64,000 bases of DNA from Dongia deserti (GTDB lineage Bacteria > Pseudomonadota > Alphaproteobacteria > Dongiales > Dongiaceae): positions 106,887 to 170,886 of the forward strand of contig NZ_QORW01000006.1 of assembly GCF_003574735.1 (NCBI RefSeq), given 5' to 3'. The notes under the pieces are model-generated. The model did not search any database, was not told the DNA's origin, and worked only from the letters and a program-made list of their open reading frames with translations. The position numbers and the translations under genes are program-made. Below, in pieces: positions 23,391 to 37,184 of the stretch. Every line of letters begins with the position of its first letter. The stretch's first letter is position 1.

Positions 23391-24152
23391 CTATGCGATG
23401 CACTCGCCGCCATCGACCACCAGAGCGTGCCCGGTCATGTAGCTGGATCGGTCGGAGGCGAGATAGAGGATGGATTCTGCGATCTCCGCCACGCTGGCCC
23501 AGCGGCCCATCGGGATCTTGTCCTTGACGTAAGCCTCGAGCGCAGCGCGCCCGCCCATCTGGCGCATGTAGGGCTCATTGAACGGTGTGTCGACCCAGCC
23601 GGGGCACAGCGCGTTGACCCGGATGTTGTCGGGCCCGTAGTCGAGCGCCATCTGCTTGGTCATGGCGATCACCGCCGTCTTGCTGGTGATGTAAGCCAGC
23701 ATGCCCTTGTCGAAGAACACACCCGAGTTGGATGAGGTGTTGATGATGACGCCCTTGCCCTGGCGCTTCATGTGCGGCAGCACCGCCTTGGCCGCGACGA
23801 AATGGGCGCGCACGTTGATATCGTAGCTGCTGTCGAGGCCGCTGACCGGCACCTGCTCCAAGGTGCCTTCGATCTGGATGCCGGCGTGGTTGTGCAGGAT
23901 ATCGATGCGGCCGTGGGTCTTTGCCGTTTGCTCGACCAGGCGGTCGATATCGGCATCCTTGGTGACGTCAAGCTGCCACCCTTCGGCGCGGCCGCCGGCA
24001 TCGCGGATGCGTTGCGCGGTTTCTTCCGCACGCGCGGCGACCAGGTCCGTGGCGATCACGATGGCGCCTTCGCGGCCCATGATCTCCGCCCCGCCGCGCC
24101 CGATGCCGGAACCGGCGGCAGTGACGACGGCGACGCGATCCTTGAGGATCAT
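23391..24152 (-). CDS. short-chain dehydrogenase/reductase
   Basis: Classical SDR of 253 residues using NAD(P)(H). Cofactor loop TAAGSGIGRGGA at residues 11-22; D36-L-V after the second strand favours NAD. NHAG motif present as LHNHAGIQ; catalytic Ser in INTSSNSG, Tyr and Lys in YITSK; C-terminal SSYMTGHALVVDGG. Eleven bases separate it from the permease gene upstream on the same strand, so it may be the last gene of the polyamine-type transport operon and act on a related metabolite. The substrate cannot be named. Confidence 0.9.
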   Translation of the reverse strand: MILKDRVAVVTAAGSGIGRGGAEIMGREGAIVIATDLVAARAEETAQRIRDAGGRAEGWQLDVTKDADIDRLVEQTAKTHGRIDILHNHAGIQIEGTLEQVPVSGLDSSYDINVRAHFVAAKAVLPHMKRQGKGVIINTSSNSGVFFDKGMLAYITSKTAVIAMTKQMALDYGPDNIRVNALCPGWVDTPFNEPYMRQMGGRAALEAYVKDKIPMGRWASVAEIAESILYLASDRSSYMTGHALVVDGGECIA

Positions 24153-24162
24153 TCCTTCCTCC

Positions 24163-24984
24163 TTACGTTTTCCCCTGGACGCTCTTGCGCCGCAGCAGCA
24201 GTTGTGCGCCGAATAGCATGACCAGCGAGAACATCATGATGGCCGTGCCGATGGCATTGATCTCCGGCGTTACGCCGCGGCGGATCGACGAGAACACGTA
24301 GATCGGCAGCGTGTTGAGCGGCCCGGCGACGAAAAACGCGATCACGAAGTCGTCGAAGCTGAAGGTGAAGCAGAGCAGGAAGCCGGCCAGGATCGCAGGC
24401 GCCAGCTGCGGCAGCGTCACCTGCCGGAACGTCGCCCAAGGATCGGCATAGAGATCCATCGAGGCCTCGATCAGGCTGCGATCCATGCCGGCGATGCGCG
24501 CCCGGACGATCACGACGACCAACGCCATGGAGAACAAGGTGTGGGCAGCGATGATCGAGCCATAGCCCATGTGGAGCTGCGGCGGCGTGTCGGTCGGCCA
24601 GATCTCAGCCAGCACCGCGTTCGCCGCATCGAACGTCGTGACGAGGGCGATCAAGGTCGCGATGCCGATCACGATCCCCGGCACCATGATCGCGATGTAG
24701 GTGAGGCCGTCGAAGATCACGCGCACCGGGCCTTTGACCCGCTGCAAAGCCAATGCGGCCATCGTGCCCATGATGGTTGCCAGCGCGGCGGACGAGAAGG
24801 CGACGGTCAGACTGGTCCTCAGCGCATCCAGCATCAGCGAGTTGCCGGCGACCCTGGCGTACCAGCGCAGAGAGAAACCCTGGAAATCGGCGGCGCTCAG
24901 TCCCGAATTGAAGCTGAACAGAACGATCAGCGCGATCGGGCCATAGAGGAAGAGATAAACCAGGGCGGAGTAGGCGCGCAGCAT
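24163..24984 (-). CDS. ABC transporter permease, PotC type
   Basis: Inner-membrane permease of the spermidine/putrescine importer family with about six transmembrane segments. The EAA loop that contacts the ATPase is EASMDLYADPWATFRQVTLPQLAPAI near residues 165-190. N-terminus LVYLFLYGPIALIVLFSFNS and C-terminal RRGVTPEINAIGTAIM are typical of PotC/PotI. It lies 7 bp after the PotB-type gene. The transported compound is probably a polyamine or a related cation; sequence alone does not decide. Confidence 0.9.
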   Translation of the reverse strand: MLRAYSALVYLFLYGPIALIVLFSFNSGLSAADFQGFSLRWYARVAGNSLMLDALRTSLTVAFSSAALATIMGTMAALALQRVKGPVRVIFDGLTYIAIMVPGIVIGIATLIALVTTFDAANAVLAEIWPTDTPPQLHMGYGSIIAAHTLFSMALVVVIVRARIAGMDRSLIEASMDLYADPWATFRQVTLPQLAPAILAGFLLCFTFSFDDFVIAFFVAGPLNTLPIYVFSSIRRGVTPEINAIGTAIMMFSLVMLFGAQLLLRRKSVQGKT

Positions 24985-24991
24985 GGCTGCC

Positions 24992-25918
24992 TCAGATCAG
25001 CGAGGCATCGCGACGGCCGCCGGTCGCGGCGGTCGCGCGCAAATAGAGGCTGACGGTCACCAGCATGATGATGACCAGTGCCATCGCCACGGCGGAGCCG
25101 TAGGGCCAGTTCAGGCTCTGCAGGAACAGGTCGACCAGCGCATTGCCGATGAAGAACACCTTGCCGCCGCCCAGCATCTGCGGGATCAGGTATTCGCCCA
25201 TCAGCAAGATGAAGACCAGCATGCAGCCTGTGATGATGCCCGGCGCGGAAAGGGGCAGCGTGATCTGGCGGAAGGTCGCGAACGGCCCGGCGCCGAGATC
25301 CTCCGAGGCCTCCAGCAGCCTCTTGTCGAGTTTCTCCAGGCTGACATAGATCGGGAACACCATCAGCGGCAGATACGCATAGACGATGCCGCACATGACT
25401 GAGAACGGCGTGTTGATCAGGCGCACGTCGCCCATGCCCATCGCATCCAGCAAGGCAGGAATGCCGCGCCCCCCGAGAATGAAGATCCAGGCATAGGTGC
25501 GGATGAGGAAGCTGGTCCAGAACGGAACGATCACGAGGATCAGCAGCATCACGCGCCAGCGTGCGCTTGATTTGACCGCCAGGAAATAGGCCAGGGGATA
25601 ACCGGCGAGCAGGCAGATCAACGTGCCGAGCGGGGCCAACGTCAGTGTGTTCTTGAACGCGGCCCAGCGCGCCGGAAGGTTCAGATAATTGTCGAGAGTG
25701 AAAGCCGCCTGGTAGCCTCCGGCCGGTGCCCGCACGCCCACGCTGTAGACGAGCACGACCGCCAGCGGCAGGATCAGCAGCACAAAGAACCAGACGGCGC
25801 TGGGCGCCAGCAGCAGGGCGGTGAGCCACCGCCCCGACTGCCTGCGTTCGGTGACCGCGGGTGTTGCGATGGTCTGTGCAGTGGCGGTCATATGCGGATC
25901 TCGCGCTTGAAACAGCAC
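24992..25918 (-). CDS. ABC transporter permease, PotB type
   Basis: Partner permease of 308 residues. One N-terminal segment (LTALLLAPSAVWFFVLLILPLAVVLVYSV) is followed by the PotB/PotH core, with the EAA loop EASEDLGAGPFATFRQITLPLSAPGI and the family sequence FWTSFLIRTYAWIFILGGRGIPALLDAMG. It is separated from the binding-protein gene by a 163-bp gap that holds the REP-like double palindrome, so its expression may be lower than that of the binding protein. Confidence 0.9.
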   Translation of the reverse strand: MLFQARDPHMTATAQTIATPAVTERRQSGRWLTALLLAPSAVWFFVLLILPLAVVLVYSVGVRAPAGGYQAAFTLDNYLNLPARWAAFKNTLTLAPLGTLICLLAGYPLAYFLAVKSSARWRVMLLILVIVPFWTSFLIRTYAWIFILGGRGIPALLDAMGMGDVRLINTPFSVMCGIVYAYLPLMVFPIYVSLEKLDKRLLEASEDLGAGPFATFRQITLPLSAPGIITGCMLVFILLMGEYLIPQMLGGGKVFFIGNALVDLFLQSLNWPYGSAVAMALVIIMLVTVSLYLRATAATGGRRDASLI

Positions 25919-25929
25919 GCGATGAGTCT

Positions 25930-26036
25930 CCCTCCCCCAAGTTGGGGGAGGGTTGGGGTGGGGGTTGCTCTCTCAAGCGAAGATTGAGTCGAGTTGAACC
26001 AACGCCCCCACCTAACCTCCCCCGACTCGGGGGAGG
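25930..26036. repeat. REP-like double palindrome inside the ABC operon
   Basis: Two hairpins in a larger dyad. Hairpin 1: CCCTCCCCCAA-G-TTGGGGGAGGG (25930-25952). Hairpin 2: CCTCCCCCGA-C-TCGGGGGAGG (26016-26036). The spacer arms GGTTGGGGTGGGGGTTG and CCAACGCCCCCACCTAACC are also imperfect complements, so the whole 107 bp folds on itself. Elements of this look are common intergenic repeats in alphaproteobacterial genomes. Between the binding-protein and permease genes it could stabilise the upstream mRNA. Confidence 0.85.
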
Positions 26037-26081
26037 AACCCATATTGTGCGTTCCCAAGCTCATACGCGGGTCGTTCCGAC

Positions 26082-27224
26082 CTATGCCGACTTGAAGCGC
26101 GCCATGATCTCGGCGCGGGCGGGATTGGTCAGGGTCGCCGCCGCGCCGAATTCCAGCGGTGCCAGCAATTCGGCGGCCGGATAGAGGATCGGATCCTCGA
26201 TGATCTCCTTCGGCAACAGGTCGATGACGCGCTTGTCCGCGACGGGATAGCCGTGGAACAGCACCTCGTCGGCATTGACCTTCGGCTCCAGCAGGAAGTC
26301 GATCAGCGCATAGGCCGCCGCGCGGTGCGGCGCGCCCTTTGGAACCGCATAGAAGTCGGCCCAGATCTCGCCCCCTTCCTTGCCCAGGATGTATTGGAAG
26401 GCCGGATCGGTCTTCTGCAGCTGCTTGCCGTCGCCCGTCCAGCACACCGACATATAGGCGTCGCCGTTGATCAGCGAGGGCTTGTAGTCGCTGTTGATGG
26501 CGAACAGGTTCGGCTTGCTGTCGAGCAGCAGCTTCTCCGCGTCGGCCAGCTCCTTCTCATCATTGGAGTTGAAGGAATAGCCGAAATACTTGAGCGCATT
26601 GCCGATGGTGGTGAGCTGGTAGTCATGCACCATCGTGCGGCCCTGGTACTTGGAGTTGGTGAGGTCCCAGAACTCCTTCCAGCTGGTCGGCTTGTCGGTC
26701 ACCTTGGCGGAATTGATGACGTAGCCGGTGGTGCCCCAATCCTTGTGCACGGCATAAAGCTTGCCGCCGACTGTACCGGGCTCGGTGAAGCGCGGGTCCG
26801 TATAGGATTGCGGCGCGTAGTTCGGCAGCATCGCGGCATCGAGCGGCTCGAACATGTCCTCGGACACGTAGGTCTCGATCGTGTAGTTGGTCGGCACCAG
26901 CACGTCCCAGCCGGTCCCGCCCGCCTTCAGCTTCGCGAACATCTCCTCGTTCGAGCCGAACACGGTGATGTTGACCTTGACGCCGGTCTCCGCCGTGAAC
27001 TTCTCGAAATTCTTCGGCTCGTGATAGTCGGGCCAGGTGGTGAGATTCACCTGGTCGCCCAGCTCGCCGGCAGCGTAGGCGCGCCGGCCGGTCATCAGGT
27101 GCGGCACGCTGGCGGCCAACACGGCCGTTGCCGTGCCAAGGCCGGTGACACCGAGAAAATGCCGCCGGCTGATCGAGCCCTTGTGATAGCGGCGCAGTTG
27201 TTCGATGAACTCCTTGCGATCCAT
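26082..27224 (-). CDS. Tat-exported polyamine-type substrate-binding protein (PotD/PotF family)
   Basis: Periplasmic binding protein of the spermidine/putrescine ABC importer. The N-terminus carries a twin-arginine signal (SISRRHFLGVTGLG, then a hydrophobic stretch and AYAAGE as a likely cleavage region). The mature part has the family sequence NLTTWPDYHEPKNFEKFTAETGVKVNITVFGSNEEM, then WDVLVPTNYTIETYV and AVHKDWGTTGYVIN. The ATG at 27224 is used because GGAGGC is 6 bases upstream and the Tat motif follows. It is the second gene of the ATPase-binding protein-permease-permease run. Polyamine specificity is inferred from family. Confidence 0.9.
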   Translation of the reverse strand: MDRKEFIEQLRRYHKGSISRRHFLGVTGLGTATAVLAASVPHLMTGRRAYAAGELGDQVNLTTWPDYHEPKNFEKFTAETGVKVNITVFGSNEEMFAKLKAGGTGWDVLVPTNYTIETYVSEDMFEPLDAAMLPNYAPQSYTDPRFTEPGTVGGKLYAVHKDWGTTGYVINSAKVTDKPTSWKEFWDLTNSKYQGRTMVHDYQLTTIGNALKYFGYSFNSNDEKELADAEKLLLDSKPNLFAINSDYKPSLINGDAYMSVCWTGDGKQLQKTDPAFQYILGKEGGEIWADFYAVPKGAPHRAAAYALIDFLLEPKVNADEVLFHGYPVADKRVIDLLPKEIIEDPILYPAAELLAPLEFGAAATLTNPARAEIMARFKSA

Positions 27225-27304
27225 GTTTGCCTCCTCCGCGCATACGACGTCTTGGTTGTTGCGGGCAGCGGGGCGCGTCGCCGGCCTCGTGTCCGGGGAA
27301 TCGC

Positions 27305-28468
27305 TTAGGTAGCGCGCAGCGCCAGCGCCTGGTCGGCGCGCCAGCCGATCTCCGCCATATCGCCCGGCTGCAGGCTCATGGCGAGCGGGTCCGATTTCGG
27401 CAGCCGCACCATCAGCTCGCCCAGCTCCGGCACATGCACGCTGAATTCCGTGTGGTCGCCGAGATAGATGCGATTGCGCACCTGACCTTGGCGACGCAGA
27501 TCGAGATCGGCAGACGCGCGGCCGACCGGCCACAGGCCGATCACTTCCGGCCGCACTGCGATCACGCCATCTTCCCCGACGGACAGATGCTCGCCCGCCG
27601 CGCTCCAGCGCGCTTTGAGCGCAAGGCCATTGGACAGCGTGATGCTCGCGCCATTTGTGTGCGTCGCTGTGACCTTGCCGGCGAGGAAGTTGGACTCGCC
27701 GACGAAATCGGCGACGTAGCGGTTGACCGGCGCATCGTAGAGAAGCTGAGGTGTGCCGAACTGCACGATCCTGCCATCGCGCATGATCGCGATGGTGTCG
27801 GACATGGACAAAGCCTCTTCCTGATCATGCGTTACCAGGATGAAGGTGATGCCGACATCGCGCTGCAAGTTCTGCAACTCGATCTGCATGTCGCGGCGCA
27901 GCTTGCGGTCGAGTGCCGCCAGCGGCTCATCCAGCAGCAGAACGGTCGGGCGGTTGACCAGCGCACGGGCGAGGGCCACGCGCTGCTGCTGCCCACCGGA
28001 CAGCTCCCAAGTGCGCCGCGCGCCCATCTTGGGCAGGCGCACCAGCTCCAGGGTCTCCGCAACGCGCTTGTCGATCTCCGCGCGGTCCAGCTTCGGCCGG
28101 GCCTGGCGCAGGCCATAGCCGACGTTGTCCGCCACGTTCATGTGCGGAAAGAGCGCATAGTGCTGGAACACCATGTTGACCGGGCGGCGATAGGCCGGCA
28201 CGCCGACCATGGAGCGGCCGCCGATCGCGACCTCGCCGGCATCCGGCTGCTCAAATCCCGCGATCAGGCGCAAGCTGGTGGTCTTGCCGCAGCCCGAGGG
28301 TCCGAGGAAGGAATGGAACGAACCGCGCGGAATCTCGAATGAGATATCGTCGACCGCGACCACCGGGCCGAAGCGCTTGGTCACGCTGCGAAATTCCACG
28401 TCCGCCGGTGCGCTGGCCGACCGCGCGGCGGCCGCTGCTTTCGGCTCAGTCCATGAGGTCACGCCCAA
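27305..28468 (-). CDS. ABC transporter ATP-binding protein, PotA type
   Basis: ATPase of the polyamine-type importer. Walker A LGPSGCGKTTSLRLIAG (about residue 55), Q loop VFQHYALFPHMNVADNVGYGL, signature LSGGQQQRVALARAL, Walker B LLLDEPLAALDRKLR and H loop LVTHDQEEALS. The C-terminal 140 residues form the TOBE regulatory domain. Length 387 matches PotA/PotG. First gene of the importer operon; 80 bp separate it from the binding protein. A LuxR-type regulator is transcribed away from it across 141 bp, a likely shared control region. Confidence 0.92.
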   Translation of the reverse strand: MGVTSWTEPKAAAAARSASAPADVEFRSVTKRFGPVVAVDDISFEIPRGSFHSFLGPSGCGKTTSLRLIAGFEQPDAGEVAIGGRSMVGVPAYRRPVNMVFQHYALFPHMNVADNVGYGLRQARPKLDRAEIDKRVAETLELVRLPKMGARRTWELSGGQQQRVALARALVNRPTVLLLDEPLAALDRKLRRDMQIELQNLQRDVGITFILVTHDQEEALSMSDTIAIMRDGRIVQFGTPQLLYDAPVNRYVADFVGESNFLAGKVTATHTNGASITLSNGLALKARWSAAGEHLSVGEDGVIAVRPEVIGLWPVGRASADLDLRRQGQVRNRIYLGDHTEFSVHVPELGELMVRLPKSDPLAMSLQPGDMAEIGWRADQALALRAT

Positions 28469-28609: not shown

Positions 28610-29410
28610 ATGCTTAAGCGTACGCTGGATTGGTATCCGGCCTTGGCCGAAGCGATCCGGGAGCTGGATGGACCGCGCTTTGCGCCGGCCTTGGCCCGCG
28701 CCCTGCGCCAGGTCGCCCCGTTCGACCACACGGTGATCTTCGGCTATCGGGGGGAGGAGCGGCCCCTCGACCTCTATGATGATTTCGGCCCGCAGAGGCG
28801 CGATATCTTCGTGACGGTCTATCAGGCCGGACCCTATCTGCTCGATCCTTTCTTTCATGCCAGCCGCAACAATGTGGCGCCCGGGCTCTATCGCATGCGG
28901 GGCTTGGCGCCCGACCGCTTCTATCAGAGCGAATATTACCGCTCCTACTACGTGCAGACCGGCCTCACTGAGGAGATCGGCTTTTTCCTCGCCACAGGCG
29001 ATGGCGCGCGGGTCGTCATTTCGCTGATGCGCGCCGGCCATTCGCCGGCCTTCAATACGCGGGAGATGACGGCGCTGCACGCGGTCGCGCCGGTGGTGAT
29101 CGCGGCGGCGGAGCGCAACTGGCGCGGCCTGGCCCAGCGCTTCGACAATGCGCCAGGAACCCTTCCCGCCGAGGCGGCCTTGCGCGAGGCTTTCGCTGCT
29201 TTCGGCCGGCACCGCCTGACCCATCGTGAAAGCGAGGTGGTGGCGCTGGTGCTGCGCGGCCATTCCTCGGAGGCGATCGCCGCCGCGCTTGGCATCGCGC
29301 CGGGCACGGTCAAGATCCACCGCAAGAATATCTATGCCAAGCTCGGCATCGGGAGCCAGACAGAGCTGTTTTCCATGTTCCTGGCATCCTTGTCCGGCGA
29401 CCGAGCGTAG
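28610..29410 (+). CDS. LuxR-family transcriptional regulator
   Basis: Regulator with a C-terminal LuxR helix-turn-helix (residues about 200-258: RLTHRESEVVALVLRGHSSEAIAAALGIAPGTVKIHRKNIYAKLGI). The first 180 residues contain no receiver-domain Asp pocket and no clear acyl-homoserine-lactone site, so the signal is unknown. The divergent layout next to the polyamine-type ABC operon suggests that it controls that operon. It stands 18 bp before msrB on the same strand, so the two could be co-transcribed. Confidence 0.88.
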   Translation: MLKRTLDWYPALAEAIRELDGPRFAPALARALRQVAPFDHTVIFGYRGEERPLDLYDDFGPQRRDIFVTVYQAGPYLLDPFFHASRNNVAPGLYRMRGLAPDRFYQSEYYRSYYVQTGLTEEIGFFLATGDGARVVISLMRAGHSPAFNTREMTALHAVAPVVIAAAERNWRGLAQRFDNAPGTLPAEAALREAFAAFGRHRLTHRESEVVALVLRGHSSEAIAAALGIAPGTVKIHRKNIYAKLGIGSQTELFSMFLASLSGDRA

Positions 29411-29428: not shown

Positions 29429-29860
29429 ATGGCACTCTTCAGCAAGAGCAATATCGCCCCCACCGAGGGCTACGAGGTCATCAAGTCGGACGAGGACTGG
29501 CGCCGGCAGCTCACCCCGGAGCAGTTTGCCGTCATGTTCGAGCATGCGACCGAGCGCCCTGGCTCATCGCCCCTGCTGCATGAAAAGCGGCCGGGAACCT
29601 TCGTCTGTGCTGCCTGCGGTGCGCCAGCCTATGACATGGACACGAAATTCGAGAGCGGCACCGGCTGGCCCAGCTTCGTTGCACCGATCGAAGGCGGCAC
29701 CGCGACACAGACCGACCGCTCTTTTTTCATGGTCCGCACCGAGGTGCATTGCGCCAAATGCGGCGCGCATCAGGGCCACGTGTTCGAGGACGGTCCAGCG
29801 CCGACGGGCCTGCGCTACTGCATCAACGGCGCGTCCCTAAAGTTCAAGCCGAAGGCGTGA
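29429..29860 (+). CDS. msrB: peptide-methionine (R)-S-oxide reductase MsrB
   Basis: Repairs R-methionine sulfoxide in proteins. Two CxxC pairs bind structural zinc (CAACGAP and CAKCGAHQGHVF). The catalytic cysteine is in GLRYCINGASLKF, and the resolving region FESGTGWPSF is present. No signal peptide, so it is cytoplasmic. Length 143 is usual. Its last 17 bases overlap the 3' end of the ECF sigma gene on the other strand. Confidence 0.96.
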   Translation: MALFSKSNIAPTEGYEVIKSDEDWRRQLTPEQFAVMFEHATERPGSSPLLHEKRPGTFVCAACGAPAYDMDTKFESGTGWPSFVAPIEGGTATQTDRSFFMVRTEVHCAKCGAHQGHVFEDGPAPTGLRYCINGASLKFKPKA

Positions 29861-30545
29861 AAACAGCCAGGCGCATCAATACACGCTGGATCAGCCGGTC
29901 GCACCGCTCGCCTGCGAATGGCAACATCTCGCCGAAGCTCAGCTTCAGTTCGCGCTGCAGCCTTTCCCGCAGCTTGCGGCGGGCGCGCAGGAAACGGGTG
30001 CGGACGGTCTGAGGATTGAGGTCGAGGAGCTGCGCGACTTCCTCGACGCTCAAGTCCTCCAGCGCGCGGAGGATGAACACCGCGCGTTGGTCTTCCGGCA
30101 GGTCGCCAACCGCGTTTTCCAGATAGGGCCGCAACTGCGCGCGCATGACGGCGGACTCGGGCGACAGCGCAGGGTCTTCGACCGCTTCCGCCTTCGGCGA
30201 GCCGTCGGGCCGTAGCGGAATGATATTGCCGACCGCTGCCGCCTGCGCTTGCTTCTTGCGCCGGCGCATCAGCGCTTCATTGATGGCGATGCGGGTCAGC
30301 CACGTGGACAGCGCCGCCTCGCCGCGGAAATTGGGCAAAGCGGCGAAGGCCTTGAGATAGCAATCCTGCACGGCATCTTCCGCTTCCTGCTCCTCCCGCA
30401 AAATACCCCAGGCGGCACGATAGAGCCGCCGGTTGTTGCGGCGCATGATCTCGGCCATCGCCACCGCATCGCGCGCCAGGGCGCGCGCGATCAGGGTCGC
30501 TTCGCCGGTGCTGGTGTCCGCTGGGTCTAGTTTTGGAGTCGCCAT
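29844..30545 (-). CDS. ECF-type RNA polymerase sigma factor
   Basis: Alternative sigma factor with region 2 (AAWGILREEQEAEDAVQDCYLKAFAALPNFRGEAALSTWLTRIAINEALMRRRKK) and region 4 (LPEDQRAVFILRALEDLSVEEVAQLLDLNPQTVRTRFLRARRKLRERL), with a 50-residue linker. The ATG at 30545 is chosen because the upstream frame is not conserved-looking. No anti-sigma gene stands next to it. The divergent DUF4142-cupredoxin pair begins 119 bp away and could be a target. The C-terminal GERCDRLIQRVLMRLA after region 4 is a short helical extension. Confidence 0.92.
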   Translation of the reverse strand: MATPKLDPADTSTGEATLIARALARDAVAMAEIMRRNNRRLYRAAWGILREEQEAEDAVQDCYLKAFAALPNFRGEAALSTWLTRIAINEALMRRRKKQAQAAAVGNIIPLRPDGSPKAEAVEDPALSPESAVMRAQLRPYLENAVGDLPEDQRAVFILRALEDLSVEEVAQLLDLNPQTVRTRFLRARRKLRERLQRELKLSFGEMLPFAGERCDRLIQRVLMRLAVFTPSA

Positions 30546-30663
30546 CACCGCATTAGATGCGCCGAATGCCGGAACGTTCCCGCCTCGATTCTGCGCGCGA
30601 AGGGGAACGCGGCGCAAGGCGCCAGCATCCAACCTGTATCGCAACCAAACGGGAGGAACGCTC

Positions 30664-31203
30664 ATGTCTCGGACCATATTGGCCGGTCTTATGCTGGCCG
30701 TAGGGCTGGCGGCGGGTTGCGCTGGCTCCGCCACGGCCCAGGACCCCGCCAAGCTCAATGACCTCGAAATTGCCCACGCAGCCTATGTTGCGGGCGATAT
30801 CGATATCCGCAACGCGCATCTGGCGCTCGCTCTCTCTGACGACCCCAAGGTGCGCGAGTTCGCCGAGCTGATGATCCGCGATCATGAAGCGGTGAACCAG
30901 GCCGCACTCGATCTGCTGGAGAAACTCAAGGCCGAGCCGCAGGACAATGCATTCAGCCAGGCTCTGATGAAGGGTGCGCGCGACAACTGGGCGAAGATGG
31001 CACAGCTTTCCAGCGCCGAATTCGACAAGAGCTACGCCGCCAACGAGCTTGCCTATCATCAGACCGTGAACAAGGTGGTCGGCGAGGCCTTCATTCCGAA
31101 CGTGGAGAATGGTGAGTTGAAGACCCTGCTCGGTTCCGCGCTCGATACATTCAAGGCGCACGAAACGCACGCCAAGCAGATCGTGGACGAGATCGGATCG
31201 TGA
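30664..31203 (+). CDS. DUF4142 domain periplasmic protein (putative lipoprotein)
   Basis: Secreted protein of 179 residues. The signal MSRTILAGLMLAVGLAAGCA carries a lipobox-like LAAGC; cleavage after AQA-like sequence further on is the alternative. The mature part is a DUF4142 ferritin-like four-helix bundle (DLEIAHAAYVAGDIDIRNAHLALALSDDPKVREFAELMIRDHEAVNQ, then ELAYHQTVNKVVGEAFIP and TFKAHETHAKQIVDEI). GGAGGAACGCTC precedes the ATG. Its stop overlaps the GTG of the cupredoxin gene by 4 bases, a coupled pair. The function of DUF4142 is unknown; an envelope-stress role is inferred from the divergent sigma factor. Confidence 0.85.
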   Translation: MSRTILAGLMLAVGLAAGCAGSATAQDPAKLNDLEIAHAAYVAGDIDIRNAHLALALSDDPKVREFAELMIRDHEAVNQAALDLLEKLKAEPQDNAFSQALMKGARDNWAKMAQLSSAEFDKSYAANELAYHQTVNKVVGEAFIPNVENGELKTLLGSALDTFKAHETHAKQIVDEIGS

Positions 31204-31544
31204 CACTAGTCGCAAGGCGCGGCGCCGGTTCGCTGTCATGGGGCCGGCGCCGCTTTCTTGCACTATTGTCCACAGCCCTCTTCGTCCGACCGGCGCAAGC
31301 GGAGAGTCCGGTCGTGGAGATCCAGCAATTCGAGTTTGTGCCGGCTGATATCGAGATCGCAGCGGGCAGCACTGTCGTATTTGTCAATCTCGACCTGGCG
31401 CCGCACACGGCCACAGGCGAAGGCTTCGACACTGGCGCGCTGCGCAAGGGTGAGCGCAAGGAAATCGCTTTCCCGACCGCAGGGGAGTTCGCATACCTCT
31501 GCAAGTTCCATCGCCACATGACGGGGCGCATCGTGGTCCGTTGA
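31200..31544 (+). CDS. cupredoxin (amicyanin/plastocyanin-like copper protein)
   Basis: Small type I blue-copper protein for electron transfer in the periplasm. A signal peptide starts RRRFLALLSTALFVRPAQA, with two arginines that suggest Tat export. Copper ligands are visible: His in APHTATGE, Cys and His in LCKFHRHM, and the Met of that segment. Length 114 before processing fits. Translationally coupled to the DUF4142 gene (GTG start, overlap of 4). The partner is unknown. Confidence 0.88.
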   Translation: MTLVARRGAGSLSWGRRRFLALLSTALFVRPAQAESPVVEIQQFEFVPADIEIAAGSTVVFVNLDLAPHTATGEGFDTGALRKGERKEIAFPTAGEFAYLCKFHRHMTGRIVVR

Positions 31545-31636: not shown

Positions 31637-33244
31637 ATGCGTACCGTTGGCATGTATCTAGCCGAACTGCTTGAAGCTTATGGCGTCGAAGTGATATTCG
31701 GCATTCCGGGCGTCCATACGGTGGAGCTCTATCGCGGCCTGCCGAATACGAAAATCCGCCACGTCACGCCGCGGCACGAGCAGGGCGCTGGCTTCATGGC
31801 CGACGGCTATGCGCGGGTCAGCGGCCGCCCCGGCGTGTGCTTCATCATCACCGGGCCGGGCATGACCAACATCGCCACCGCGATGGCGCAGGCCTACGCC
31901 GATTCCGTCCCCATGCTGGTGATCTCCGCAGTCAACGCCCTGGGCCAGATCGGCTCCGGCGAAGGCTGGCTGCATGAGCTGCAGGACCAGCGACAGCTGA
32001 TCAAGCAGGTCTCTGCGTTCAGTCACACCGTCATGACGCCGGCCGAGCTGCCCAGGGTGATGGCGCGTGCCTTTGCCTTGTTCGCCGGAAGCCGGCCTCG
32101 TCCGGTCCATATCGAGCTGCCGCTCGACATCATCACTGCGCCGGCGGACAAGCTGCCGCCGATCCGCGCCATCGTGCCGCCTTCGCCGCCGGCCGCTTCG
32201 CCCTCGGCCCTGCAGGAGGCGGCGAACTGGCTGAATATTGCCAAGGCGCCGGTGCTGTTGCTGGGTGGAGGCGCGCAGGATGCCGGCTCCTTCGTGCGCG
32301 CGATCGCCGAAAAGCTCGACGCGCCGACCGTGATGTCGGTCAATGGGCGCGGCTTGCTCCCGCCCCGCCATCCGCTGGCCGTGCCGTGCAGTCCATCCAT
32401 GCCGCCGACCATGAAGCTGATCGAAGGCGCCGACGTCATCCTCGCCATCGGCACGGAGTTCGGCTCGACCGACTATGACTGGTTCGAGCAGGGCGGCGCG
32501 AAATTCAACGGCAAGACCATCCGCATCGACATCGACGCGCAGCAGGTCGTACGCTCGCGCCAGCCTGACCTGCCGATCGTCGCCGATGCATCTGAGGCGA
32601 GCTCCGCTTTGGTGCCGCTGCTGAGTTCCGCAAAGCGTGACGGCGCTGCACGGGCCGCTGCGGCGCGCGATGCCGTCCTGGCCGATCTCAGCCGCACCTA
32701 TCGCGCTTGCCTGCATCTGATGGAGACGGTGCGCGATGCCCTGCCGGGCGCGGTGCTGGTCGGCGATTCGGCGCAACCGGTCTATGCCGGGTGCATCTGT
32801 TATCCATCGGCGGCGCCACGCTCCTGGTTCTGCTCGGCGACCGGCTATGGCACGCTCGGCTATGCGCTGCCGGCGGCGATCGGTGCGCAGCTTGCGGCGG
32901 CGGACCGGCCGGTTGTCTGCCTGATCGGCGACGGCGGCCTGCAATTCACGATCGCGGAGCTGGCGTCGGCGCGGGAGGCGGGAACACCGGTCATTGTGCT
33001 GCTCTGGAACAACAACGGCTATGGCGAGATCAAGACCTATATGGTCTCGCGCCAGATCCATCCGATCGGCGTCGACATCTTCACACCGGATTTCCAGGTC
33101 CTCGCGAAGGGCTTCGGCTGCGAAGCGGTGACGCTGAAGAAGCCGTCCGATCTCCCCGGCCTGCTGCGCGAGGCAGCCAAGCGCAAGACCGCGACCATCA
33201 TCGAGATCGAGGAAAACGACTACGTCGCGAACTACGAGGGGTGA
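31637..33244 (+). CDS. ThDP-dependent 2-oxo acid decarboxylase/acetolactate-synthase-like (AruI-like)
   Basis: Thiamine diphosphate enzyme with PYR domain (catalytic Glu in RHEQGAGFMADGYARVSG), central domain, and PP domain with the Mg-ThDP motif GDGGLQFTIAELASAREAGTPVIVLLWNNNGYGE. It is like acetolactate synthase catalytic subunits, but no small subunit is near, and the N-terminal GMYLAELLEAYGVEVIFGIPGVHTVELYRGL resembles 5-guanidino-2-oxopentanoate decarboxylase AruI. The ATG at 31637 is chosen because homology begins there. Four bases separate its stop from a PLP decarboxylase gene, so both act together. The substrate is not proved; benzoylformate-type or acetolactate-type activity are alternatives. 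Confidence 0.82.
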   Translation: MRTVGMYLAELLEAYGVEVIFGIPGVHTVELYRGLPNTKIRHVTPRHEQGAGFMADGYARVSGRPGVCFIITGPGMTNIATAMAQAYADSVPMLVISAVNALGQIGSGEGWLHELQDQRQLIKQVSAFSHTVMTPAELPRVMARAFALFAGSRPRPVHIELPLDIITAPADKLPPIRAIVPPSPPAASPSALQEAANWLNIAKAPVLLLGGGAQDAGSFVRAIAEKLDAPTVMSVNGRGLLPPRHPLAVPCSPSMPPTMKLIEGADVILAIGTEFGSTDYDWFEQGGAKFNGKTIRIDIDAQQVVRSRQPDLPIVADASEASSALVPLLSSAKRDGAARAAAARDAVLADLSRTYRACLHLMETVRDALPGAVLVGDSAQPVYAGCICYPSAAPRSWFCSATGYGTLGYALPAAIGAQLAAADRPVVCLIGDGGLQFTIAELASAREAGTPVIVLLWNNNGYGEIKTYMVSRQIHPIGVDIFTPDFQVLAKGFGCEAVTLKKPSDLPGLLREAAKRKTATIIEIEENDYVANYEG

Positions 33245-33248
33245 TCCA

Positions 33249-34661
33249 ATGCGGATCGAGGAGATCAGGGGCTGGGGCGCGAAGATCGCGGACTGGGCCG
33301 CGCGCTATCTCTCGACCGTGCACGAGCGGCCCGTGCGTTCGCCGCAGGCGCCGGGCGCGACGTTGAAGGCCCTGCCTGCCGCACCGCCGGAACGCGGCGA
33401 AGACATGGAGGCGATCTTCGCCGATTTCGAGAAGATCATCGTGCCCGGCCTCACGCATTGGCAGCACCCGCGCCACTTCGCCTACTTTCCCTGCAATTCC
33501 AGCCCGCCATCCGTGCTCGCGGAATATCTGACCGCCAGCCTTGGTGTGCAGTGCATGCTCTGGCAGACCTCACCGGCGGCAACCGAGCTGGAAATGCGCG
33601 TCATGGACTGGCTGCGCCAGATGCTTGGCCTGCCCGAGGAATTTCAGGGCGTCATCCACGATACGGCCTCAAGCGCGACGCTCTCCGCCTTGCTGACCGC
33701 GCGCGAAAAGGCGCTCAACTGGCGTGGCAACGGCCAGGGTCTCAGCGGCCAGCCTGCCGTTCGGGTCTATTGCTCGGAACAGGCGCATTCCTCCATCGAT
33801 AAGGCCTGCTGGATTGCCGGCATCGGTCAGGACAATCTAATCAAACTACCGTCGAGCGGATCGCTCTACGGCATGGATGTCGCGGCACTCGATCGCGCGA
33901 TTGTCGCGGACCGCGCCGCGGGCCATCTTCCCTCTGCCATCGTCGCGTCCGTCGGTGCCACCTCGGTGGGTGCGTGTGACGGTGTCCGCGCGATCTGCGA
34001 GATTGCGCGACGGCACAATATCCACATCCATGTCGATGCAGCCTGGGCCGGCAGTGCGATGATCTGCCCGGAGTTCCGCGAACTGTGGGACGGCGTTCAG
34101 CTGGCGGACAGCGTCGTGTTCAATCCCCACAAATGGCTGCTGACCAATTTCGACTGCACCGCCTTTTTCGTGCGCGATCCCGCGGCGCTGGTGAAGACGC
34201 TCGGCATCCGCCCGGAATATTTGAAGACACAAGGCCGCGACGGCATCATCAATTACAGCGAATGGTCGCTGCAACTCGGTCGCCGCTTCCGCGCGCTCAA
34301 GCTCTGGTTCGTGATCCGCGCCTACGGTCTCGAAAACCTGCGCAACCTGGTCCGCGATCATGTGCGCTGGGCGCAAGGGCTAGCGGAACGCATCAAGGCA
34401 ACTGCGGATTTCGAGCTGGTGACGCCGCCGATCCTCTCCCTGTTCAGCTTCCGCTATAAGCCGGAAGGCACCGCCGATCTCGACGCGCTCAACGCACGCC
34501 TGATCCAGGCGATCAACGATGACGGCCGCACCTATCTCACTCAGACGCGTTTTCAGGACCAGTTCGTCATCCGCTTCGTGGTCGGCCAGACCTACACGAC
34601 GGAACGTGACGTCACCTTCGCCTGGGAGGTGATCCAGGAAATCGCGCGCAACATCAAATAG
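33249..34661 (+). CDS. group II pyridoxal-phosphate-dependent decarboxylase
   Basis: Member of the aromatic-amino-acid/glutamate decarboxylase fold. The PLP lysine is in VVFNPHKWLLTNFDCTAFFVRD; the stacking and aspartate site is HVDAAWAGSAMICPEF; GLTHWQHPRHFAYFPCNSSPPSVLAEYL is typical for the tyrosine/tryptophan/dopa decarboxylase branch. Length 470 is normal. Immediately after the ThDP decarboxylase (4 bp), and followed by a large palindromic repeat that probably ends the transcript. Substrate could be an aromatic or basic amino acid. There is no aminotransferase between the pair. Confidence 0.9.
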   Translation: MRIEEIRGWGAKIADWAARYLSTVHERPVRSPQAPGATLKALPAAPPERGEDMEAIFADFEKIIVPGLTHWQHPRHFAYFPCNSSPPSVLAEYLTASLGVQCMLWQTSPAATELEMRVMDWLRQMLGLPEEFQGVIHDTASSATLSALLTAREKALNWRGNGQGLSGQPAVRVYCSEQAHSSIDKACWIAGIGQDNLIKLPSSGSLYGMDVAALDRAIVADRAAGHLPSAIVASVGATSVGACDGVRAICEIARRHNIHIHVDAAWAGSAMICPEFRELWDGVQLADSVVFNPHKWLLTNFDCTAFFVRDPAALVKTLGIRPEYLKTQGRDGIINYSEWSLQLGRRFRALKLWFVIRAYGLENLRNLVRDHVRWAQGLAERIKATADFELVTPPILSLFSFRYKPEGTADLDALNARLIQAINDDGRTYLTQTRFQDQFVIRFVVGQTYTTERDVTFAWEVIQEIARNIK

Positions 34662-34800
34662 CTGTCATCCCGGCCGAGCGCAGCGAGAGCCGGGACCCAT
34701 TCGGCGTCAACGCCTCGCTACATCTTTGACGGAACTTGTTCGCCGACAGACCGCATGGGTCCCGGCTCTGCGTCACTTCGTGACTTGGCCGGGATGACAG
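34662..34800. repeat. long interrupted palindromic repeat, possible bidirectional terminator
   Basis: Outer arms CTGTCATCCCGGCC (34662-34675) and GGCCGGGATGACAG (34787-34800) are perfect complements. Inner arms GAGCCGGGACCCAT (34687-34700) and ATGGGTCCCGGCTC (34755-34768) are also perfect. Between the arms of the right half, GTCAC-TTC-GTGAC (34772-34784) forms a small hairpin. The element fills the space between two convergent genes. Repeats of this general sequence are spread through many alphaproteobacterial genomes; a transcription-terminating role is inferred from its position. Confidence 0.85.
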
Positions 34801-34806
34801 TTGAAA

Positions 34807-36990
34807 TTAAGCGCCCTCCGGCGCCACCTTGTCTCTGGTGAGTTCCAGGGCCTGGCGGGCGACCGCGGCGGCATCTTCGCCTTGTGCCACCGTCACGGTC
34901 GGGAAAGCGAAATTGATACCGTTGGCGTCGAAGGCCTTCTTGATCATGGCATAAGCCTTGCGCCGGATGACGAACTGCTCGCCGGGCTTGGTCATCATCT
35001 TCATGCGGATCTGGATGGCGTATTCGCCGAACTGCTCAACGCCTTGCATCTTCAAAGGCTCGATGATATTCGGCGCATATTCGGGATCGGCAGCCAAGTC
35101 CTTGCCGACCTGCTTGATGATCTTCTTGGCCTTGTCGAGATCGCTGTCATAGGTGATGCCGATCTGCATCTTGTCGATCACCCAGTCGCGGCTCATGTTC
35201 TGCACCGCGCCCAATTCGCCGAACGGCACGGTGTAAAGCGGCCCACGATGGTGCCGCAGCTTCACCGACCGCAGCGAGAAGGATTCGACCGTGCCCTTGT
35301 AGCTGCCGCTCTGGATATACTCCCCGACGCGGAAGGCATCGTCGAACAGATAGAACACGCCACTGATGATGTCCTTCACCAGGGTCTGCGCGCCGAAGCC
35401 GACTGCGACGCCGATCACGCCGGCACCGGCGATCAGCGGCCCGATCTCCACGCCCAAAGCCGACAACACCATCATTGCCGCCACGGCGATCACCACCACC
35501 AGCAACATGTTGCGGAGGATCGGCAGCAGCGTGCGCAGCCGCGAGCGCCGGCGCGCCTCTTCGCTGTCGACCTCGCCGGCACCCATGGCGTCGGCGATCT
35601 TGCTATCGATCACGGCGCGCACCAGCCGCCATAGGAAATCCGCGACCAGCACGATGACGACCGCGCTCAAGGCGCCACGGATCAGCCGCGTCGCCACCGT
35701 ATCGCGCGCGGTCAGCTCGATCAGGTCGATGTCCCACACATGGGCGAGAAGCAGCGCGGCCACGACGACCAGGGCGGCCCGCAATCCGCGCTCCAGGGCG
35801 ACGGCGGCGAGGATTGGCGCGCCGCGATCTTCCATCGCGCCCTCGACCGGTCGCAACAGGTGTGCGACCGCGTCGCGGCTGATGGAGAGGAGGAACGGCA
35901 AAGCGCTGCCGATCAACAGCAGCCAGAAGGCAGGCATCAGATGCAGCGCCCATAGTACCCACATCGCCACGAACAGGATGGTCGCAATGACGGACTTGCC
36001 GCGCCGTCCAATGCGCCGCCGCGTGGCATCCGCCGCCGGCTCGACGACCGGGCGCCGCCAGATCACCTCCATAGCTAGGCCAAGTAGGAAGAGGCCTACG
36101 CTATAGCTCAGCAACTTGAGGCTGGCGGGCGATACACCCAGCGTGCGCAAAAGACCGAGCGTGACCCAGGTGAAGGCCACCACGCTGACCGCGATGATGA
36201 TGCGCCGCTGCCAGAACTTTGCCGCCGGGTCGGACATCGGGATAATGCGAAAGCGCGCAGCGCGCCCGCCACCCGGCGCCAGCAGGAAGCCCGCAACGAT
36301 GCGCGCTAGCCAGCCACACAGGAACGCCACGAGGTAGCCGAGCACGATCTCGCGCAGGAGCAGCGGCCAGGTGAAGCAAAGAAATGCCCCAACGCTGCCG
36401 ATCGTGAAGGACAAGGCCCAGCCGATCGCGAAAGCCAGGCGCGCCACCATCGCCCGCAGCCGATCGCCGACATTCAGGATCTCCCTGCCGATCAGCCAGT
36501 TGCGGAACGCAGTGGTCACCCACCAATAGCCCCACGCAAACAGGAAGCCGACGCCGATAAAGATCGCGATCAGCACCAGGATGGCAATGAGCCCGTGCTC
36601 CTCGAACTCGAGCGACAGGATGATCCAGGCGCGCTCGAGCTCGGCCGGCAGCTTGTGCCGGGCGGCTGCCAGCAGCGCCAAGTTGTCCCGGAGGAGCTGC
36701 AGCCGCTCGGCGAAATAGCTCGCCATGGACCGCTCGGGCTGTGGCGCAGGCGCCGGCACGTCGGCAGCGTTGTCGACCGGTGGCTGGCGCTCCAGCCATT
36801 GCTGAACGGCGGGGTCCCGCAACAATTGCAGGAGCAGCTCGACCTGATGCGGCGGCTGCTCTGCCGTGGCTTGCTCCTGCCCCTGCTGCGCCATGCTGGA
36901 CGGTGCGGCCGCCGCCAGCAAGAGCACGAAACTCAATAGGCCGGCCACCAATCGCAGCCAAGCCATCACGCCAAAGTGGAAGATGCTCAT
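34807..36990 (-). CDS. large MscS-family mechanosensitive ion channel
   Basis: Channel protein of 727 residues that opens under membrane tension. It has a signal peptide (LRLVAGLLSFVLLLAAAAPSSMAQQ), a periplasmic Gln/Pro-rich region (to about residue 130) and ten or more transmembrane segments. The MscS core follows: LIAGAGVIGVAVGFGAQTLVKDIISGVFYLFDDAFRVGEYI (pore helix and beta domain), then VPFGELGAVQNMSRDWV and a C-terminal FAFPTVTV region. This fits the YbiO/MscM-like large subfamily. The ATG at 36990 is chosen since a typical signal follows; upstream frame codons are atypical. It lies alone on its strand and ends at the palindromic repeat. Confidence 0.9.
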   Translation of the reverse strand: MSIFHFGVMAWLRLVAGLLSFVLLLAAAAPSSMAQQGQEQATAEQPPHQVELLLQLLRDPAVQQWLERQPPVDNAADVPAPAPQPERSMASYFAERLQLLRDNLALLAAARHKLPAELERAWIILSLEFEEHGLIAILVLIAIFIGVGFLFAWGYWWVTTAFRNWLIGREILNVGDRLRAMVARLAFAIGWALSFTIGSVGAFLCFTWPLLLREIVLGYLVAFLCGWLARIVAGFLLAPGGGRAARFRIIPMSDPAAKFWQRRIIIAVSVVAFTWVTLGLLRTLGVSPASLKLLSYSVGLFLLGLAMEVIWRRPVVEPAADATRRRIGRRGKSVIATILFVAMWVLWALHLMPAFWLLLIGSALPFLLSISRDAVAHLLRPVEGAMEDRGAPILAAVALERGLRAALVVVAALLLAHVWDIDLIELTARDTVATRLIRGALSAVVIVLVADFLWRLVRAVIDSKIADAMGAGEVDSEEARRRSRLRTLLPILRNMLLVVVIAVAAMMVLSALGVEIGPLIAGAGVIGVAVGFGAQTLVKDIISGVFYLFDDAFRVGEYIQSGSYKGTVESFSLRSVKLRHHRGPLYTVPFGELGAVQNMSRDWVIDKMQIGITYDSDLDKAKKIIKQVGKDLAADPEYAPNIIEPLKMQGVEQFGEYAIQIRMKMMTKPGEQFVIRRKAYAMIKKAFDANGINFAFPTVTVAQGEDAAAVARQALELTRDKVAPEGA

Positions 36991-37184
36991 TGCAGACCCC
37001 CAGGGCGGCCGCAGCGCACCGCTCCAGGCCAGCATAACGCGGGAGCGGACGCCTTGGAATCCCTGGTCTTTTGGCCAGAATCCGGCAGATTCAGAGAAAA
37101 TTAGCCATCCGGCGCAAGACTGCATCCGTAGGCCACATCGTGCGGCGCCTGTGCTGCGCCATGGCCGGAGGGGCAGGAGTGTCG

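Follow-up and report, generated by a model that had tools for sequence, protein, structure and literature searches.

Two neighbouring decarboxylase genes in Dongia deserti form a young unit whose members probably belong to different pathways

Here we describe two unrelated decarboxylase genes, one dependent on thiamine diphosphate (ThDP) and the other on pyridoxal phosphate (PLP), that lie four nucleotides apart in a 64,000-nucleotide stretch of the Dongia deserti genome (assembly GCF_003574735.1, contig NZ_QORW01000006.1, positions 106,887 to 170,886; hereafter the window). With moderate confidence we favour the view that they make up a two-gene unit of recent origin, each member of which most likely works in a pathway of its own, the product of the PLP enzyme feeding a ring-cleavage cluster on another contig. 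A tight pair of this kind can mislead pathway inference, as the locus of a sister species lacks one of the two partners, whose own likely functional partners are found on another contig. The pair itself is a modest finding, and the remote cluster the more novel lead. The features at the centre of the analysis are as follows.

31637..33244, plus strand: ThDP-dependent 2-oxo-acid decarboxylase, 535 aa, of the AruI / PRK07524 family (NF005712, TPP_enzyme_N/M/C, tree)
33249..34661, plus strand: PLP-dependent decarboxylase of the aromatic-L-amino-acid type (group II), 470 aa, named PLP_A (Pyridoxal_deC, solved relatives, NPHKW/AHSS/PEYL residues)
33242..33251, plus strand: junction TGA-TCCA-ATG, with the 4-nt spacing also in genome G002; in genome G003, TGATCC and then directly the mscS stop
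34807..37125, minus strand: MscS-type mechanosensitive channel, whose stop bounds the presumed PLP insertion on the right (Pfam; empty-site comparison)

In the proposed history, the ThDP gene is the older member, and its product would decarboxylate a basic C5 2-oxo acid to an aldehyde, as enzymes of the AruI family do. The PLP gene would have been gained behind it in the ancestor of the window's own genome (G000) and G002, as an empty site and the ThDP tree suggest, and the 4-nt spacing would put it on the ThDP transcript. Judged by its sequence and its contexts in other genomes, its product would turn tyrosine- or DOPA-type amino acids into the amine, which would feed a cluster of cytochrome P450, glutamine-synthetase-like (GS-like), LigB-type dioxygenase, HpaE-like and FAA-hydrolase genes at about 222.4-234 kb of contig C2 of G000. 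There PLP_A would replace the cluster's own decarboxylase, PLP_B, a second type about 44% identical to it, which relatives keep inside the cluster. PLP_A would most likely be an aromatic amino acid decarboxylase that has been relocated and whose cluster is carried by a different contig.

The physical arrangement of the pair, as described in an original prediction made from the window alone, proved correct. Both reading frames are intact, the ThDP gene running from ATG at 31637 to TGA at 33244 and the PLP gene from ATG at 33249 to its end at 34661, with TCCA as the spacer, and G002, a second genome of the same genus, has identical start codons and identical spacing. Between G000 and G002, dN/dS is 0.10 for the ThDP gene and 0.15 for the PLP gene, indicating purifying selection on both, and dS is similar (0.58 and 0.65), so the pair predates the split of the two genomes and is functional. 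The window corresponds to G000:C48:106887-170886, where C numbers denote contigs and L numbers loci; gene calls outside named reading frames come from a home-made GC-frame caller, and some protein names were assigned by eye.

The pair is not kept across distant genomes. Among the best 80 of 528 confirmed PLP relatives in the species-representative collection, a ThDP gene is adjacent at one locus (L029, from the same-genus genome), and at two further loci (L035 and L037) a ThDP homologue with 27-28% identity lies several kilobases off. In the reverse direction, a PLP gene is found near the ThDP gene at 1 of 27 ThDP loci (flanks of about 1.5 kb; 21 of 289 genomes of the class), the window itself. 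Among 22 longer ThDP stretches it is adjacent in G002 only, two others (G008 and G012) having a different PLP gene (43-44% identity) about 8 kb away, and none of six plasmid-borne ThDP loci has one adjacent. Across the 80 PLP and 27 ThDP loci the pair is therefore restricted to two genomes of one genus; a conserved ThDP-PLP operon was rejected on these counts, and the co-conservation looked for was not found.

The third species of the genus, G003, offers what appears to be the empty site. Its locus order is kept on both sides, with the ThDP gene at 89% identity and no PLP gene, and reads short-chain dehydrogenase (SDR), permeases, solute-binding protein, ATPase, LuxR, MsrB, sigma factor, DUF4142, cupredoxin, ThDP, mscS, CDF, MFS, PNPOx; the same locus is present in G002 as far as its sequence reached. 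In G003 the sequence passes from TGATCC after the ThDP gene directly to the region of the mscS stop; in the window and in G002 the PLP gene lies between the two, and the junctions of the insert are clean (TGATCC on the left, GCGCCCTCCGGCGCCA on the right). The ThDP tree places G003 outside G000 and G002 (support 96/77). The ThDP gene is thus shown to be the older resident of the locus. As a side observation, in the window the space separating the PLP gene from mscS (34662-34806) is taken up by a long inverted repeat (GTCATCCCGGCC...GGCCGGGATGAC), which is not at that place in G002.

The PLP enzyme is a group II amino-acid decarboxylase, as had been predicted. It scores 346 bits against Pfam Pyridoxal_deC, and its best solved relatives are DOPA decarboxylase 7xin (401.7 bits), tyrosine decarboxylases and animal aromatic-amino-acid decarboxylases (E 3e-119). 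Aligned with 7xin, it keeps the Lys of NPHKW at 292, the His of AHSS at 179 and the Tyr of PEYL at 322; a loop Tyr at this last position is presumably a sign of decarboxylase rather than aldehyde-synthase activity. Other substrate classes were tried and rejected: the model for L-2,4-diaminobutyrate decarboxylase (NF052646) gives 173.5 bits against a cut-off of 900, and those for aspartate, glutamate and histidine decarboxylases all score far under their cut-offs. Its relatives and their genomic contexts together point to a putative aromatic-L-amino-acid decarboxylase of the tyrosine/DOPA type.

These contexts repeatedly involve aromatic ring cleavage. In Ruegeria TM1040 and on R. leguminosarum plasmids, a decarboxylase about 60% identical to PLP_A is located between hpaD and downstream hpa genes of the annotated homoprotocatechuate operon, in an order of the type hpaR-F-E-D-PLP-G-H-I. 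At least three hpa genes lie within 8 kb at 29 of the 80 PLP loci, and hpaD and hpaH are both present at 24, several of the 80 ending at contig ends, where missing neighbours are no proof of absence. At five Rhodobacterales loci (L039, L041, L042, L071 and L076) the PLP gene is followed by HpaI-like, P450a, GS-like and ferredoxin genes, with P450a at 67-70% and the GS-like protein at 59-62% identity to those of the D. deserti cluster; a sixth locus, L103, combines an hpa operon with P450a and GS-like genes. Upstream of the decarboxylase, L042 and L071 also have homogentisate-dioxygenase-like and fumarylacetoacetase-like genes (named by eye). Elsewhere, in Shinella (L169 3866-9634) and R. leguminosarum (L170 718-6316), the PLP orthologue stands beside two genes of the aspartate-aminotransferase family, together with genes for a phosphotransferase and for a hydrolase of the HAD type; this may be an amino-alcohol kinase / phospho-lyase module. 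The PLP tree was built from 43 of 103 extracted sequences, picked for spread. Judged by titles and the openings of abstracts, literature searches turned up no description of an aromatic-amino-acid decarboxylase in a homoprotocatechuate context, and the words decarboxylase, homogentisate, tyrosine, homoprotocatechuate and hpaD are all missing from the main text of PMC12442348.

The cluster in the D. deserti genome itself (G000:C2:222400-234000; L180 3412-14127) comprises, in order, ferredoxin reductase, ferredoxin, GS-like, P450a, ADC-like, FAA hydrolase, LigB-type dioxygenase, HpaE-like, MarR-type regulator and amino-acid permease genes, and has no decarboxylase gene. Its dioxygenase and the adjacent HpaE-like protein are related to, and not members of, the known families: 143.9 bits for HpaD_Fe (TIGR02298; cut-off 315.95) and 515.4 bits for HpaE (TIGR02299; cut-off 638.35). 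Searches of the same genome found no class I HpaD (TIGR02295; best 33.7 bits, cut-off 321.4) and no HmgA of the homogentisate pathway (TIGR01015; 78.4 bits, cut-off 510.75); a Cu amine oxidase (PF01179), as a candidate next step, was likewise without a match, as was the E. coli control. Plasmids of Novosphingobium and Streptomyces carry related clusters, to which those of Streptomyces add a gene of the gamma-glutamyl-GABA-hydrolase type. The C2 cluster may serve an aromatic amine by way of gamma-glutamylation; literature searches turned up no title or abstract opening that describes gamma-glutamyl-tyramine or -dopamine catabolism of this kind.

The distribution of the two decarboxylase types suggests how PLP_A is connected with this cluster. 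In G003, G008, G011 and G012, PLP_B sits between the ADC-like gene and P450a, and PLP_A is missing; in G000 and G002 the place of PLP_B in the cluster is empty, and PLP_A stands beside the ThDP gene instead. G010 has the cluster without a decarboxylase and PLP_A elsewhere. Among 17 genomes of the family, either type is present in 8 and the dioxygenase in 12, including all 8 (hypergeometric 0.020, ignoring descent), and the GS-like gene is found in the same 12 genomes as the dioxygenase (12 of 15 searched). It is distinctly unlikely, we consider, that the arrangement is a pure accident, the PLP gene merely borrowing the ThDP promoter with neither the link to the C2 cluster nor a pathway shared with the ThDP enzyme being functional. 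The pair does occur in two genomes only, and PLP orthologues are also found in unrelated contexts, as in G010 and the rest of the 80 PLP loci, above all most of those from Mesorhizobium, which have few or none of the hpa, P450 and GS neighbours; against this stand the dioxygenase in every PLP-bearing family genome and the Rhodobacterales orthologues that adjoin the same P450a, GS-like and ferredoxin genes as the cluster in D. deserti. Since the PLP gene was probably a recent insertion, and seems tied to an aromatic ring-cleavage cluster elsewhere in the genome and not to arginine or polyamine metabolism, its closeness to the ThDP gene is no proof of a common pathway, and the original proposal that four-base spacing implies one is left unsupported.

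Several observations nevertheless weigh against two separate pathways and a relocated decarboxylase. One gain of the PLP gene in the ancestor of G000 and G002 and one loss in G003 are equal by count, so that loss fits equally well. The position of the PLP gene 4 nt behind the ThDP gene has remained unchanged since G000 and G002 split. Four genomes (G006, G013, G015 and G016) have the dioxygenase but lack both decarboxylase types, so that a decarboxylase is not indispensable to the cluster, and in G014 PLP_B lies on another contig than the cluster. PLP_A and PLP_B co-occur in 0 of 12 genomes, yet chance gives about 0.16 (hand-computed from the counts). Finally, four genomes of genus g6 (G008, G012, G013 and G015) have a 59% identical ThDP gene adjoining P450b of the ring-cleavage cluster.

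This last arrangement belongs to a competing explanation, in which both enzymes would serve a single aromatic pathway that can be entered at two points: the PLP enzyme would form the amine, a neofunctionalised AruI would decarboxylate the aryl-pyruvate, and the branches would join at an arylacetaldehyde used by the C2 cluster. Besides the g6 arrangement, the landing of the PLP gene exactly behind the ThDP gene and its persistence there are in keeping with this scheme, as are substitutions in the ThDP enzyme. At several positions the window's ThDP clade deviates from almost all of the 19 remaining clade members; residues peculiar to it, for example at 116, 231, 234 and 519, could mark a changed substrate. 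One of these, P116Q, adjoins H113-E114, which correspond in the alignment to the Q-E of a segment of acetolactate synthase. We take that segment to be an active-site region. In the tree, however, the window and g6 enzymes fall into different sub-clades, the former with Rhizobium and Shinella plasmid proteins and the latter with G066/G183/G279/G057, their sister enzymes beside agmatinase-type genes. Moreover, G003 keeps the ThDP gene in the locus without any PLP gene there, and G007 and G009 have a 55-58% identical ThDP gene and no dioxygenase. A shared aromatic pathway is on balance unlikely.

The ThDP enzyme belongs to the AruI family. It scores 781.8 bits against NF005712, the NCBIfam model for 5-guanidino-2-oxopentanoate decarboxylase (cut-off 500), has the Pfam domains TPP_enzyme_N/M/C and resembles AruI as predicted. 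Acetolactate synthase was rejected for this enzyme: TIGR00118 gives 296.7 bits, below its cut-off of 538.35, and the phylogeny puts the protein in a separate 22-row clade of AruI-like proteins (support 100/100), far from five other ThDP enzymes of its own genome. The tree has 46 rows (49 extracted sequences minus the three duplicates L001-L003), with the outgroup rows on long branches, and each of its sequences takes in a few residues ahead of the matched region, so that N-termini are approximate. Three genes of the D. deserti genome exceed the family cut-off (on C48, the window's contig, C28 and C49). The second of them, G000:C28:194-9868 (L114; 668.8 bits), has a pot-type ATP-binding cassette (ABC) importer with its own binding protein and a class III aminotransferase nearby (named by eye). 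The claim that AruH, the partner aminotransferase of the P. aeruginosa pathway and no requirement for belonging to the family, is absent holds for the neighbourhood, Pfam scans of the window proteins having found no aminotransferase family; its genome-wide absence does not follow, as the rest of the genome was not surveyed for this partner. In S. meliloti, transaminases other than AruH are used (PMC7268258).

Relatives of the ThDP enzyme, several of them members of the same 22-row clade, more often lie close to guanidinobutyrase-type genes and importers of the polyamine type. Those of G066, G279, G183 and G057 (48-54% identity) lie close to agmatinase/guanidinobutyrase-looking genes, with pot-type importer genes also near in three of the four (all names by eye); one on a P. 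aeruginosa plasmid is near an annotated agmatinase, one in Pararhizobium follows a pot-type importer directly, near a dimethylarginine hydrolase-type (DDAH-type) gene, and one in Caballeronia is followed by an aldehyde dehydrogenase gene and pot-type importer genes. Agmatinase-like genes were found in all 11 genomes searched, several per genome, and therefore do not discriminate. The AruI homologue IlvB1 of S. meliloti decarboxylates 5-guanidino- and 5-amino-2-oxopentanoate, the latter sevenfold better (PMC7268258). Taken together, these contexts and the IlvB1 activity make a basic C5 2-oxo acid (5-guanidino- or 5-amino-2-oxopentanoate) the likeliest substrate, by analogy with the characterised enzyme.

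The nearby polyamine-type importer of the original prediction is indeed present, at 24163-28468 on the minus strand (SBP_bac_8, two BPD_transp_1, TOBE_2 ATPase), about 3.2 kb from the ThDP gene with several unrelated genes intervening. In the route first envisaged, both enzymes would act on arginine- or ornithine-derived compounds with this importer supplying the substrate, and the ThDP family and the importer type do fit arginine/polyamine metabolism. A homologue of the importer's pot-type ATPase (at least 38% identity to the window's) is found in 6 of 19 ThDP-centred stretches outside the genus, a count for which no null expectation was computed. We regard this route as very improbable, given that the nearest relatives of the PLP enzyme are aromatic-amino-acid decarboxylases, that its orthologues occur in aromatic ring-cleavage operons and that it falls so far short of the diaminobutyrate-decarboxylase model (173.5 bits against 900). 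The importer and the genes between it and the pair are the following.

30433..31203, plus strand: DUF4142 protein, true start probably near 30650 (Pfam DUF4142; kept in G002 and G003)
31200..31544, plus strand: cupredoxin-like protein directly upstream of the ThDP gene (Pfam Cupredoxin_1 / Copper-bind; kept in G002 and G003)
29844..30758, minus strand: sigma-70 family (ECF-type) sigma factor (Sigma70_r2 and r4_2)
29429..29860, plus strand: MsrB (SelR-domain) methionine sulfoxide reductase (Pfam SelR)
28610..29410, plus strand: LuxR-type regulator (Pfam GerE)
27305..28468, minus strand: ABC importer ATPase, polyamine-transporter type (ABC_tran and TOBE_2)
26082..27140, minus strand: extracellular solute-binding protein of the importer, start approximate (SBP_bac_8 in the reading frame 26082-27533)
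24992..25918, minus strand: ABC importer permease (BPD_transp_1)
24163..24984, minus strand: ABC importer permease (BPD_transp_1)
23391..24152, minus strand: SDR at the end of the importer operon (adh_short_C2)

Just upstream of the ThDP gene, the sigma factor, DUF4142 and cupredoxin genes (29844-31544) form a unit conserved in three species of the genus. The MsrB gene lies less than 2 kb from the AruI-type ThDP gene, and MsrB genes of 50-54% identity are found near such genes in three other genomes (L154 7858-8265, L155 8402-8803 and L158 10980-11375). In both G008 and G012 the ThDP gene has a QhpR-like AraC regulator next to it (L146 15972-17054 and L147 16139-17221), the L147 copy scoring 339.9 bits against a cut-off of 250.

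A wider and still doubtful reading is that the C2-type clusters encode an undescribed aromatic-amine pathway of Alphaproteobacteria, with a related form in Streptomyces, in which the PLP enzyme is the entry and, in this genus, the AruI-type enzyme has been recruited for the matching 2-oxo acid. The amino acid would be decarboxylated, and the amine gamma-glutamylated by the GS-like enzyme and oxidised by the P450 with ferredoxin and reductase; the ring would then be opened by the LigB-type dioxygenase, with HpaE-like and FAA-hydrolase steps to follow. If true, soil and marine Alphaproteobacteria would handle tyramine- or dopamine-type amines by a gamma-glutamylated route of the Puu kind, and relocation would here be a natural example of one decarboxylase replacing another.

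Both enzymes and the cluster can be set beside known systems. The ThDP enzyme belongs to the same NCBIfam subfamily, far over its cut-off, as AruI and S. meliloti IlvB1 (SMc02263), and its context resembles that of AruI-family relatives beside agmatinase-type genes and polyamine-type importers; unlike AruI, it has no adjacent aminotransferase, carries substitutions of its own clade and has a predicted activity, and IlvB1 itself is promiscuous, with its sevenfold preference for 5-amino-oxopentanoate (PMC7268258). The PLP enzyme resembles the bacterial DOPA decarboxylase 7xin over nearly its full length and shares its catalytic Lys, His and loop Tyr; in contrast to enzymes of the 7xin type, it is located behind an AruI-type gene, with a predicted substrate. 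The hpa operons of Ruegeria TM1040 and R. leguminosarum likewise embed a PLP decarboxylase among hpaR, E, D, H and other hpa-type genes, whereas the D. deserti genome has no class I HpaD over the cut-off and carries a related LigB-type cluster on another contig. As for PuuA-type gamma-glutamylation, the GS-like protein (G008 copy) scores 177.7 bits on gamma-glutamylputrescine synthetase, far below the cut-off of 650, and, in distinction from the PuuA-type and Streptomyces GlnA3/GlnA4 routes, clusters of the C2 type add P450s and a ring-cleaving dioxygenase.

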